From Buttiauxella noackiae ATCC 51607 (GTDB lineage Bacteria; Pseudomonadota; Gammaproteobacteria; Enterobacterales; Enterobacteriaceae): a stretch of 64,000 nt of DNA. The position numbers and the translations under genes were made by a program. The notes beneath the pieces are model-generated. The model was given only the letters and a program-made list of their open reading frames with translations, ran no database searches and was not told the DNA's origin. Location of the stretch: assembly GCF_001654865.1 (NCBI RefSeq), contig NZ_LXEO01000025.1:1-64000 (forward strand), written 5' to 3'. Shown here in pieces: positions 1,819 through 7,306 of the stretch. Positions within the stretch are counted from its first letter, which is position 1. Every line of letters starts with the position of its first letter.

Positions 1819-2379
1819 CTAATCTGTCTCTCGGCTGAGTAAGTCACATTTTATTTGACTTAAAGTTGGAAGTATCAGGTCTTTATCAGATAGTATCGGA
1901 TTTGAAATAGGCCATGATATGTTCAGTGTACTATCATCCCAACAAATTCCAGCTTCATCTCCCGGTGTGTAGAAATCAGTACATTTGTAGCAAAAATCTG
2001 CTTCTTCACTTAAGACGCAGAACCCATGAGCGAAACCTGGTGGAACATAAAATTGGAGCTTGTTTTCACCACTTAATATGATTGACTCATACATTCCGAA
2101 AGTTGGAGAGTTAGGTCTAAGATCAACAGCGACATCATAAACTTCTCCAGAAATTACAGAAACCAATTTACCTTGAGGGAATTTTTTTTGATAATGTAAC
2201 CCCCGCAGTACTCCTCGTGTTGAAAATGAACGATTATCCTGTACAAAATTTAATTTTATACCAGCATTTTCTTCGTAGCGTTTAGCATTAAAGCTTTCAA
2301 AAAAAAAGCCTCTCTGGTCCCGAAAAATAGTTGGTTCAATGACAACACAATCTTTAAGTTTCGTTTCAATGACCTTCAT
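1819..2379 (-). CDS. rmlC: dTDP-4-dehydrorhamnose 3,5-epimerase
   Basis: The 186-residue cupin enzyme epimerises C3 and C5 of dTDP-4-keto-6-deoxy-D-glucose, the third step of dTDP-L-rhamnose synthesis. Family motifs are present: RGFFFESF near residue 23, RGLHYQ with the catalytic histidine near 62, GKLVSV, VPPGFAHGF, and the YKCTDFY segment carrying the active-site tyrosine. Length matches the usual 180-185. Its ATG overlaps the rmlA stop by one base (TGATG), which implies translational coupling. The SDR gene follows after 3 bases. The product could also feed 6-deoxy-L-talose or a related sugar rather than rhamnose. Confidence 0.92.
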   Translation of the reverse strand: MKVIETKLKDCVVIEPTIFRDQRGFFFESFNAKRYEENAGIKLNFVQDNRSFSTRGVLRGLHYQKKFPQGKLVSVISGEVYDVAVDLRPNSPTFGMYESIILSGENKLQFYVPPGFAHGFCVLSEEADFCYKCTDFYTPGDEAGICWDDSTLNISWPISNPILSDKDLILPTLSQIKCDLLSRETD

Positions 2380-3278
2380 CAGCGATTTACCTTAAGTGAA
2401 AGTTGTAACGTTGTATCTCTCACTAATGACTTCAAATACTGACCATATTCTGATTTGATCATTGTATCAGCAATTCTTTCAATATCTTCATTACTCAGCC
2501 ATCCCTGACTCCAGGCAATCTCCTCAGGACATGCAATTTTTAACCCTTGTACATGTTCAATTGATTGAACGAAAGATGAAGCTTCGTTCAAGCTAGCATG
2601 AGTACCTGTATCTAACCAGGCGAATCCTCGACCTAAAAGTTCAACGGTAAGTTTCCCCATTTTCAGATAAAGTTGATTAATACTCGTAATCTCAAGCTCA
2701 CCTCTATCTGATGGTTTAACAGTCTTAGCCATTGATACGACGTCATTATCATAAAAATACAAACCTGTTACCGCCCAATTAGACTTAGGCTTAATTGGTT
2801 TTTCCTCAATGCTCAAAACCTTTTTATTTTTATCAAAGTCAACAACGCCAAATCGTTCTGGGTCTTTTACATGATAACCGAAAACTGTTGCTCCTGTTTT
2901 TAAAGAGGCCGCAGTTCTTAGAGTACGACCAAATGATTGACCGTAAAATATATTATCTCCCAAAATCAGGCATACATTATCATTTGCAATAAATCCTTCA
3001 CCGATAATAAATGCTTCAGCTAATCCCGCTGGCTTATGCTGGATCGCATAGGTTAAATTCACACCTAAATTAGAACCATCACCTAATAATCTATGAAAAT
3101 TTTGACTATCTTCAGGCGTTGTAATTATTAATATGTCTCTGATCCCAGCTAACATTAATGTTGATAAGGGATAAAAAATCATAGGTTTATCATAAACAGG
3201 TAATAACTGTTTAGACATACCTTTTGTTAGAGGGTATAAGCGCGTGCCAGAACCACCGGCTAAAATTATTCCTTTCAT
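2379..3278 (-). CDS. rmlA: glucose-1-phosphate thymidylyltransferase
   Basis: This 299-residue cytoplasmic enzyme makes dTDP-glucose from dTTP and glucose-1-phosphate, the first step of dTDP-deoxysugar synthesis. The nucleotide-binding loop [11 protein letters not shown] is at residues 7-17, followed by [24 protein letters not shown] and the [10 protein letters not shown] region complete the family signature. I chose the ATG at 3278 (MKGIILAGG) because it gives the canonical N-terminus; a longer in-frame start at 3329 adds 17 unconserved residues and would overlap the upstream gene. It lies 25 bases after the NeuB-like fusion gene. No rmlB is visible in the window, so the 4,6-dehydratase must be encoded further along or supplied by the ECA homologue rffG. 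Confidence 0.93.
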
Positions 3279-3303: not shown

Positions 3304-4884
3304 CTATTTTCTATACTTGTGATGTTCACTTCTCAACACACGCTTATGACCATCGCCTAAACAGGCCTCTGCAAGTCTAATATCCTGAACAAATACTTTA
3401 AATTTGTCAGTTAGCATGTCGATTGCTACATTATCAAAGTGTGCCCACGGGGTATTACCGTACTTAACATGTTTCTCAATCATTAACCCCCCAGACGCCA
3501 CAGCAAGTTGGCAACATAATGAACCTATATCATGACTTGAATAGCCTGGAATAATTTTTGGATGTTCCAGGCTTAAATCATGATAATGCCTTACCACTGC
3601 GACATTGGCATCTTCGTTCATTGTTGGGTAAGAAGATGTACATTGCAGAAGATAGATATTACTACAATTTTTGAATTCATTTATTATAAAAGTCTCATAC
3701 TCCGGGGATGTCATACCAGTTGATATAACCACATCTCCTTTGAATTCACTAGCTACATATTTCAAAAAATCTTCATGCTCTGAAATAGTCGATGGTAGTT
3801 TTATTTTTTCCGGCGAGAATTGCTTTATAAATTCATAAGAGTATTTATCTAATACCGATGCAAACCACTTAATTCCGTATTCAGAACACCATTGAATTAC
3901 CTTATTAAAACCATCTTCATTTAATTCTAAACCATTGCGATAGTCTCTGAAGGTCTTTCCAAAGGGAGAATTATATGGTTTAGCAAGCTCTTCAGCGGTA
4001 TAGAATGTATTAACATCACGCTTCTGAAGCTTTATACTGTCCGCACCAGCCTCTGCCGCTGCTGCGATCATTCGCTGTAAAAGGTCTAAATTGCCAAAAT
4101 GGTTAGTGGTAATTTCTGCAACTATTTCGACTTTGCTTTTTGAATTAAAGTGATTTTCTATAATTCTAATCGATTGCTCATCAATGTTTGTATCTTTAAT
4201 CTTCACGCTAGTAGTTGTAATATTTTCTTTCTTACTAAAACTTCGATTAAAGCCAACAATGCTAATACCACTAAAATGTTTGTTACCTACATGAATTAGT
4301 TCAATTGCTAACTCACTTTTATGATTCATCAAAAGAGATAAGTATTCTTGCTGGCTTTGGAGAAGATTTTCCAGATAATCATTTTCGCCAAAATCGATAT
4401 TCCTGTGTGCGTCAGTTGAAAAGCCATTTTTGATAGAGAAGTCGAAACCAAGCAAATACACCGAAATCCGCTGCCTGATACGATCAGCAATCAAATTACT
4501 CAGTTTTATCGCAGAAATTATTAAGGCATCCTCGAGTTCAAAACCTGGATCAAAAAATCTTTCCTGGATAGGTTTATAATTCTCTGGACTTTCAGGGATG
4601 TAATCGACAGAGATGAAGCGAGCATCATTCTCTATGGGGTCAGCTGTCAAATAATAATCGCACCTAACTTTATTTAAAAGCAAATACTTCTTTACCCATT
4701 CATGTATATACAAGCAAACATTCCCATCGATAATGCGCTCAGAATCGTTGATATTAATAATAAAAAAATCATCTAAAGCATTTTTCTTTAGTTCATCAAG
4801 TGATGGCCCTTTCCCGATAATGGCAATTTTTTTCTTACCACTTTCAAGGAAAAGCGTACTGATTTTTTCTATTATTTTATTCAC
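3304..4884 (-). CDS. two-domain protein: GxGPSL Rossmann-like domain fused to sialic acid (nonulosonate) synthase
   Basis: At 526 residues this is about 180 longer than an ordinary NeuB. Residues 252-515 form a NeuB-type barrel with AEITTNH (256-262), KLQKRD (285-290), STGMTS (388-393), CTSSYP (415-420), GYSSHD (447-452, metal histidine) and EKH (470-472). NeuB enzymes condense phosphoenolpyruvate with an N-acyl-hexosamine or its phosphate to give a nonulosonic acid. The usual C-terminal SAF (antifreeze-like) domain is missing. Residues 18-210 form a separate domain with [27 protein letters not shown] (144-150) and HVGNKHF (198-204). This pattern recalls GT42 sialyltransferases and the DUF115/MptE-like and Maf families, but I cannot assign it firmly. 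A linker of about 40 residues joins the two. The gene overlaps the phosphatase gene by 8 bases. Confidence 0.8.
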
Positions 4885-6376: not shown

Positions 6377-7306
6377 TTAATTAGGGTTTTTTTTAGGTTT
6401 TGGCTTATGCTTTTCAGTGTTTTTCAATTCTTTGGAATCGAAAAATGCTTCATATGTGACGCGAATCTGTTTCCAATTTCCTTTCAAAAGAGAAACAACC
6501 CCGTACCCTAAAGCTAATACTATTGGTTTATTCCTTACGAAGACATTCTCACCATATTTCCTGTGTAAATAAAACAAATTCCTAAGCATGAAATAACCTT
6601 TCCATGAAAGCATGTCATTCCCTTGATTATTTACCAATAACCTTGTTGCTTTCGCATTTGGGTCACAAACTATTGGTACTCCAGCTTTTTTTGCTTTTAT
6701 TGCATATTCAATATCATCACAGAAGATAAAAAACCTTGGTTCAGGTTTACCCAACAGCGTTACAACATCCCTGTGTATTAGAGGACCTTCAAAAGGAATT
6801 GCTTCAATTTTTATTGGTTGAGACAAATCACCTTGATCCTGGATATAACTTTTAACAGATTTTCCTTTAGGATTTAAGGTAAAGATCTTCTGTATGTCAT
6901 ATGTTAGCGGTGATAGTTCTGCACATGACCCATCCAAATTATATCTAATTGGTTGGACAATGCCTTTCGGATCATTTTTTAGCATTGTCTCGAGACAATT
7001 TAAGGATGGCTGAAAATCGTCATCCATCAACCAAAGGTAGTCATAAGTATAGTTTTCGGATAATTTAAATCCCTCATAAAAACCGCCAGCACCCCCTAAG
7101 TTACCACCGGTATTCATATATTCTATCTTAGCATCTGAAATAGAAAACACGGCTTCTTTAGTACCATCACTGCTACTATTATCGATAACTAAAATATGTT
7201 GAAGCTGATAAGTTTGTTCTATTAGAGACTTCAAAACTTTTAATAAAAATTCTTTTCTATTATATGTTACAACAACAGCTATAACTTTATGTTCCAATTT
7301 ATTCAC
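6377..7306 (-). CDS. family 2 glycosyltransferase (galactofuranosyltransferase GlfT2-like)
   Basis: First gene of the O-antigen operon, 141 bases downstream of the ops element. The 309-residue protein has a GT-A fold: VAVVVTYNRKEFL-type start, IDNSSSDGT near 44, GGNLGGAGGFYEG, and the metal motif LMDDDFQP near 95. The GGAGGF segment with DDD and the FIFCDDIEYA element are typical of GlfT2/rhamnosyl- and galactofuranosyl-transferase-like GT2 proteins. It adds one sugar to the lipid-linked repeat unit on the cytoplasmic face. The C-terminus is lysine- and proline-rich (KPKPKKNPN). No glf (UDP-Galp mutase) is visible here, so the donor sugar is not established. Confidence 0.82.
   Translation of the reverse strand: MNKLEHKVIAVVVTYNRKEFLLKVLKSLIEQTYQLQHILVIDNSSSDGTKEAVFSISDAKIEYMNTGGNLGGAGGFYEGFKLSENYTYDYLWLMDDDFQPSLNCLETMLKNDPKGIVQPIRYNLDGSCAELSPLTYDIQKIFTLNPKGKSVKSYIQDQGDLSQPIKIEAIPFEGPLIHRDVVTLLGKPEPRFFIFCDDIEYAIKAKKAGVPIVCDPNAKATRLLVNNQGNDMLSWKGYFMLRNLFYLHRKYGENVFVRNKPIVLALGYGVVSLLKGNWKQIRVTYEAFFDSKELKNTEKHKPKPKKNPN

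Follow-up and report, generated by a model that had tools for sequence, protein, structure and literature searches.

A gene of Buttiauxella noackiae ATCC 51607 joins a NeuB-type synthase barrel to an N-terminal domain resembling the sialyltransferase superfamily, and this fusion is real and conserved. It lies in the window (the whole stretch of 64,000 nucleotides that was analysed) within an O-antigen cluster, with genes for a phosphatase and a cytidylyltransferase upstream of it, a trio that we read as a synthase-phosphatase-CMP-activation cassette. Direct observations are the domain architecture, the conservation of the NeuB residues, the gene trio itself, and the relation of the N-terminal domain to other families by profile. 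Our best explanation, held tentatively as a whole, is that the cassette would proceed by way of KDN-9-phosphate (KDN-9-P) and that the N-terminal domain would bind a ligand and gate the synthase. How a bacterial surface interacts with phages, hosts, and antibodies is determined by nonulosonic acids, and the fusion is the hallmark of a compact cassette that occurs in O-antigen and capsule-type loci, among them loci on E. coli chromosomes and plasmids.

By the list of open reading frames (ORFs) and the translation, the fusion gene starts with a GTG at 4884 and ends at 3304, encoding 526 residues; a plus-strand reading of 3304-4884 was ruled out, as stops occur throughout. A first-pass annotation of this DNA had described a NeuB barrel placed behind an N-terminal domain with the SAF domain missing, a description borne out by the Pfam search and by alignment to 2wqp, and the two motifs it had pointed to in the N-terminal domain, IIGKGPSL and LLGFDFS, could be located in the translation (Table 1).

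Table 1. Position of the fusion gene, its parts, and neighbouring genes in the window.
Feature	Position	Strand	Remarks
NAD-dependent epimerase/dehydratase-family protein	1000-1815	minus	O-antigen context
rmlC	1819-2379	minus	O-antigen context
rmlA	2379..3278	minus	listed ORF to 3329; O-antigen context
Fusion gene	3304..4884	minus	526-aa NeuB-type synthase with N-terminal sialyltransferase-superfamily-like domain; from ORF, translation, Pfam NeuB
EHHKY, C-terminal	3313..3327	minus	residues 520-524; no SAF domain after it
NeuB barrel	3340..4131	minus	residues 252-515; aligned to 2wqp
N-terminal domain	4165..4884	minus	residues 1-240; variable linker from about residue 215
Motif LLGFDFS	4435..4455	minus	residues 144-150; GFDF invariant in 22/22
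Motif IIGKGPSL	4798..4821	minus	residues 22-29; G24, K25, G26 invariant in 22/22
Inositol-monophosphatase-family protein, 228 aa	4877..5563	minus	Pfam Inositol_P, E 4.2e-20; proposed ulosonate-phosphate phosphatase
NeuA/PseF-type cytidylyltransferase, 232 aa	5553..6251	minus	Pfam CTP_transf_3, E 2.7e-24; proposed CMP-ulosonate synthetase
GT2 glycosyltransferase	6377..7306	minus	best NCBIfam model GlfT1, 80.4 bits, cut-off 330

Other proteins do share this domain order. A genome scan with the N-terminal domain identified 21 loci, which by their record titles belong to Pseudomonadota, Bacteroidota and relatives, Planctomycetota, and Cyanobacteria, the last two represented by one MAG and one Prochlorococcus assembly. 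Complete ORFs are present in 19 of the 21 loci, and all 19 (20 with the window included) are fused, each with an N-terminal domain followed by a SAF-less barrel; the scan queries were themselves fused sequences, and unfused relatives may be under-counted. The window protein and all 19 complete relatives also have a C-terminal E(H/N)HKY in common. A layout repeated in 19 of 19 relatives is not chance or an assembly artefact, which rules out a one-off fusion, and the occurrence of loci in several phyla rules out a private enterobacterial trait. The full-length alignment of the 20 fusions leaves out L037 and L045 (cut by contig ends), four E. coli and Enterobacter fusions, and L003 and L004.

The first-pass annotation had called the arrangement unusual, which is correct as to its rarity, yet it is conserved across several phyla. 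Within the same family, 18 of 392 genomes match the protein at the limit used, three of them with both halves, and among 398 genomes of the phylum the N-terminal domain was found only in the window's own genome. DNA matches to the region were found in 15 of 5426 E. coli genomes; in the three E. coli records and one Enterobacter plasmid that were inspected, the fusion is present in each (4 of 4), beside polysaccharide-export or rhamnose genes. A plasmid collection contained the N-terminal domain in 3 of 72,556 records (one of them 4.9 Mb), and all three are fused. Phage origin was ruled out, the N-terminal domain being in no phage record and two phage records matching the barrel only. The single unfused relative of the N-terminal domain that we found, in one scan of viral contigs, is a stand-alone 216-aa protein (L075:4950-5600) with GKGPS and IGFDG motifs and an HMM-HMM P of 5.8e-9 over 37 columns; its neighbours are, by our own reading of their sequences, methyltransferase-like and sulfotransferase-like ORFs.

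Pfam NeuB (PF03102) covers residues 272-514 of the fusion (E 3.9e-44, 151.4 bits vs a cut-off of 22.1), and this is the sole NeuB match in the source genome at E values up to 0.001. The NCBIfam models for NeuB (TIGR03569, residues 254-522) and PseI (TIGR03586, residues 252-521) gave 129.7 and 112 bits as compared to equivalog cut-offs of 399.65 and 340.25, respectively, and Pfam found no SAF match in the fusion protein; by neither score nor SAF domain is the fusion a canonical Neu5Ac or pseudaminate synthase. In the 2wqp alignment, E257, K285, Q287, K362, H451, and H472 correspond to E25, K53, Q55, K129, H215, and H236 of N. meningitidis NeuB, which we take to be the base, PEP, and metal residues, and all six are invariant in the 20 fusions. 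The barrel appears to be a functional sialic-acid-type synthase. FastTree placed the 20 fused barrels in one clade (support 0.79; 67 barrels in all, midpoint rooted), so the fusion probably arose once. The nearest unfused barrels are 28-36% identical and carry a QKR motif like the fusions; this motif was present in 28 of the 47 unfused NeuB examined, the remaining 19 having QTF, QTY, QTW, QSW, or QMR.

Only a few residues follow the barrel of the window protein, leaving no room for a SAF domain, and none of the 20 aligned fusions has space for one there. A SAF domain encoded beside the fusion gene was also ruled out, as the genome's four SAF matches are all on other contigs. These findings would be expected if the N-terminal domain were purely structural, substituting for SAF as a lid or dimerisation module and binding no CMP-sugar. 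However, SAF loss is not a trait of the fusion alone: with SAF absence judged by length, 17 of the 28 unfused QKR barrels continue for fewer than 40 residues past the match, which would not accommodate SAF, and the other 11 continue for 59 to 77. Moreover, a purely structural role would not require GKG, ND, GFDF, and HVG to stay invariant across several phyla, and we consider such a role distinctly unlikely.

The phosphatase gene overlaps the fusion gene by 8 nt (ORF starts were called mechanically, and longer overlaps are upper limits), and its product has the motifs DPIDGTENF and WD. Across 28 loci (the window, L003, L004, L022-L025, and L027-L047), a phosphatase that keeps both motifs lies upstream of the fusion on the same strand in every case, within 200 bp in 27 and at 851 bp in one; the 28 cases are not independent, given that L003, L004, and L047 are near-duplicates and that several more loci are closely related. 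The cytidylyltransferase of the window scored 103.6 bits with the PseF model, under the cut-off of 205.7. Cytidylyltransferases of one cluster are near the fusion in 23 of the 28 loci, on the opposite strand in two; in the stretches covered, none was recognised in L029, L037, L041, L043, and L045. Two of these five loci, L037 and L045, break off within the fusion, and a third, L043, starts at a contig end. Near the cassette in L029 is an IspD-like cytidylyltransferase (L029:7891-8622) in place of the NeuA-like one.

Correlations between sequence distances were calculated for 21 of the 28 loci, the two near-duplicates of L047 (L003 and L004) and the five loci lacking a recognised cytidylyltransferase being left out. 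The two halves of the fusion correlate at 0.93, the fusion and the phosphatase at r 0.68-0.69, and the fusion and the cytidylyltransferase at r 0.17-0.20; the phosphatase thus seems to travel with the fusion, and the cytidylyltransferase seems to be exchanged. A phosphatase of the fusion type was found within 1.5 kb at none of the 47 NeuB loci without the fusion. A HAD phosphatase was near 9 of the 28 unfused QKR barrels vs none of the 19 other NeuB (Fisher p 0.007), a contrast that is only suggestive because the HAD seeds came from the tested loci and the genomes are related. Two further clusters of proteins occur at cassette loci. One, of 482-607 aa (L023:8771-10561, L024:9331-11154, L030:4795-6585, L031:4241-5695, and L042:4869-6317), is encoded directly before the cytidylyltransferase in L023, L024, and L030 and may consist of transferases; the two members tested, those of L030 and L031, matched no Pfam family above cut-off. 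The second, of 339-341 aa, occurs in two E. coli loci (L022:6246-7265 and L025:7927-8952), where its gene immediately precedes that of the cytidylyltransferase, and its L022 member had no Pfam match.

The order of the surrounding O-antigen cluster on the minus strand is galF, GT2, cytidylyltransferase, phosphatase, fusion, rmlA, rmlC, epimerase/dehydratase, and a flippase-like ORF, and the cluster sits beside colanic-acid genes. The listed GTG start of rmlA at 3329 falls inside the fusion gene, and the ATG at 3278 is the likelier start. The flippase-like ORF (our own reading) occupies positions 1-979 of the window and is cut by the contig end. Another contig (C22), located via gnd, is taken as holding the other end of the cluster; it carries, in addition to a GT4-like fragment (again our own reading), genes for a HAD protein and a membrane protein, a glf-like gene, gnd, and an rmlB-like ORF. 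The cluster is thus broken between two contigs (at the left end of the window and in L049), and the gap may hold a polymerase and other transferases.

The tie between synthase and phosphatase suggests a phosphorylated product. In our explanation, three genes of the O-antigen cluster would form a sugar-acid cassette, and its first committed step would fall to the fusion. The barrel would join PEP to a phosphorylated aldose, most likely mannose-6-phosphate, and so yield a nonulosonic acid phosphorylated at position 9 (KDN-9-P); the product of the adjacent upstream gene, the phosphatase, would then take the phosphate off, and the NeuA/PseF-type enzyme would form the CMP-sugar that is to be built into the O-antigen. 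As for the N-terminal domain, it would most likely bind a CMP-sugar or another phosphate ligand and gate or cap the SAF-less barrel. Past the cassette, no enzyme cluster is common to all 28 loci (glycosyltransferases are present at 16, an SDR cluster (4) at nine, and a cluster (17) that we named aminotransferase-like from our own sequence reading at three), and the source genome has a match to the mannose-6-phosphate isomerase family, which together make KDN the simplest product. We infer a phosphorylated substrate and KDN as the product from this pattern, the cassette most likely making CMP-KDN from mannose-6-phosphate; if so, a different sugar lies behind the current label ‘N-acetylneuraminate synthase family protein’.

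Alternatively, and quite possibly, though with less probability than we give to KDN, the cassette makes another sugar acid, starting, e.g., from ManNAc-6-phosphate to give Neu5Ac or from some other aldose phosphate to give an ulosonate. The logic of the domains would be unchanged, and the two explanations exclude one another for the product only. Past the last metal His, W480, H482, D484, and D489 are invariant in all 20 fusions; the 2wqp alignment ends at that His, with no equivalent of the W480-D489 stretch seen, so the acceptor pocket may differ. The cytidylyltransferases also vary between loci, as would fit different products. However, a dedicated hexosamine gene common to all loci was not seen in the clusters (this is an impression from the clusters), and KDN would need none.

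Direct identification of the N-terminal domain through Pfam, PHROGs, NCBIfam, and PDB sequences gave nothing above threshold. For residues 1-240, the best Pfam family was MptE-like at E 0.019 (PF01973, the Maf/MptE-like family, 15.2 bits in the window protein vs a gathering cut-off of 34.6). Among the 22 members, five matched MptE-like (best E 0.015), five matched a sialyltransferase PHROG (best E 0.011), and one matched an unrelated family at 0.0018, so that family matches of single sequences are at chance level. GT42 (PF06002) had no match in the 22 members at E values up to 1 and none in genome G000 at E values up to 0.001.

In an HMM-HMM comparison, the 22-sequence alignment was set against 173 neighbour clusters, built from ORFs that had been called mechanically and are in part spurious (cluster 0, that of the fusion, was excluded). 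First came a Sphingobium protein that is MptE-like (P 2e-7 over 31 columns), followed by a TPR-MptE-like (Maf-like) protein of Brevundimonas, Shimia, and Natronohydrobacter (P 6e-6 over 152 columns) and a GT29-like protein found at three further loci (P 8e-5 over 49 columns), the first and third being short motif alignments; the fourth was well behind at P 0.013. Pfam names these leaders above cut-off in L033 and L034 (GT29) and in L040 and L044 (MptE-like), and L039 (28.7 bits) and L045 (34.4) fall under the MptE-like cut-off of 34.6, with L036 having no Pfam match. When the neighbours were compared with PDB sequences, the GT29-like one matched a sialyltransferase (E 1.2e-4), but the MptE-like and Maf-like ones did not. 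Against seven GT42 sequences (L051, which is partial, and L111, a frame with a stop, were left out) the N-terminal domain gave P 5.6e-4 over 23 columns. Against an MptE-like set selected by Pfam, in which no usable domain was obtained from 3 of 20 loci (their rows, two of them empty and one with 26 residues, stayed in the set), it gave P 0.005 over 24 columns, which is near background; known superfamily members score 1e-6 to 0.04 against each other. By profile, the N-terminal domain thus appears to be a relative of the GT29, GT42, Maf, and MptE-like proteins, the clearest link being to the Maf-like ones, in agreement with the likeness to GT42, MptE, and Maf proteins that the first-pass annotation had noted.

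The top rank of an MptE-like protein, the weak MptE-like Pfam matches in 5 of 22 members, and the invariant Lys in GKG could also be taken to mean that the domain supplies the phosphorylated aldose on the spot, acting like MptE as a nucleotide-dependent phosphotransferase. Sialyltransferases, however, share the relation to MptE-like proteins, and the genome's own isomerase can supply mannose-6-phosphate, which leaves a phosphotransferase very improbable.

The GT42 enzymes use a catalytic His after GIDF, and it is here that the fusions depart from them. A His is present in the stretch after GIDF in 7 of 7 GT42 sequences, and TSG in 6 of 7; in the fusions, no conserved His column lies between GFDF and H198 (a window-independent count over 30 residues gives zero to four His in each sequence, and their positions shift), and [STN]-Ala stands in place of TSG in 22 of 22. 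Separate GT29-like genes are near cassettes at three loci and Maf-like genes at three, which fits transfer being done elsewhere. Together, the missing TSG and His and these separate genes weaken the idea, raised in the first-pass annotation, that the domain is an active CMP-nonulosonate transferase and the protein a bifunctional synthase-transferase. The idea draws on the profile relation to GT29, GT42, and Maf proteins, on the resemblance of the Maf Pfam01973 domain to Cst-II in a solved structure (accessible text of PMC11339370), and on strongly conserved polar motifs: the conserved set of the domain is GKG, ND, W63, Y78, GFDF, Q178, and HVG, and H198 in the last is invariant in all 21 sequences with a letter there. 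H198 could act as a base, and Maf chemistry could differ from that of GT42; a transferase nonetheless has no support so far, and we consider it unlikely.

The conserved pattern argues against a GT42-type mechanism, not against ligand binding, and the reading that we prefer from these sequences is a CMP-sugar-binding, regulatory, or lid role, i.e., binding and gating rather than transfer. In its most specific form, which we hold to be possible if on the improbable side, a sialyltransferase-like domain has turned end-product sensor, binding the CMP-nonulosonate of the pathway and switching the fused synthase off, by analogy with the chorismate-mutase-like domains that control some DAHP synthases. 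A SAF-less synthase fed from central metabolism would then be controlled at its first committed step. Should the domain either sense or transfer CMP-sugars, a sialyltransferase-type domain would have been reused inside a synthase.

In the open-licence papers retrieved, as far as their accessible text goes, no description or known function of the fusion was found. As compared to other NeuB-family synthases (PF03102), it has the same barrel, in which the PEP, metal, and base positions known from N. meningitidis NeuB have aligned counterparts, but it differs in having no SAF, an extra 240-residue N-terminal domain, the QKR motif, and low equivalog scores. With GT42 (Cst-I/II), the N-terminal domain shares co-linear GxGxS and hxGxDF motifs in addition to the profile relation given above, but it has GKG for GNG besides the differences at TSG and His. 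Maf and MptE-like proteins are its best HMM-HMM relations, but here the domain is below the Pfam cut-off and is joined to a synthase. A different NeuB fusion is known from Serratia marcescens KL1/KL2, where, according to the accessible portion of PMC9000132, KDN in the capsule depends on the locus; like ours, it is a fused NeuB in an enterobacterial polysaccharide locus with NeuA, but the partner is COG1082 isomerase-like and the ORF is larger (2241 bp). L102 and L005/L006 have NeuB frames of 747-778 aa with a QMR motif and a long C-terminal part and perhaps represent this KL1 architecture; in L005/L006 (747-aa frames, taken as the Serratia type) no phosphatase was detected within 1.5 kb. The order KDN-9-P synthase, phosphatase, and CMP-KDN synthetase has been published for Bacteroides thetaiotaomicron and Prymnesium parvum (PMC6200933, in the part accessible), and we propose the same order here, candidate genes for all three steps being together in the window, but the phosphatase is of the inositol-monophosphatase family and the synthase has an extra domain. 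Group 3 capsule loci of E. coli have been published (PMC10433991, PMC13171606, and PMC13171598, each as far as accessible); PMC10433991 covers synthesis of CMP-sialic acid, inositol, and CMP-Neu5Ac in general terms, and its accessible text held no mention of the fusion or its N-terminal domain. From gene order, we infer that the E. coli cassette loci belong to this group 3 capsule type, and they carry homologous cassettes whose fusions are 46-47% identical to that of the window.
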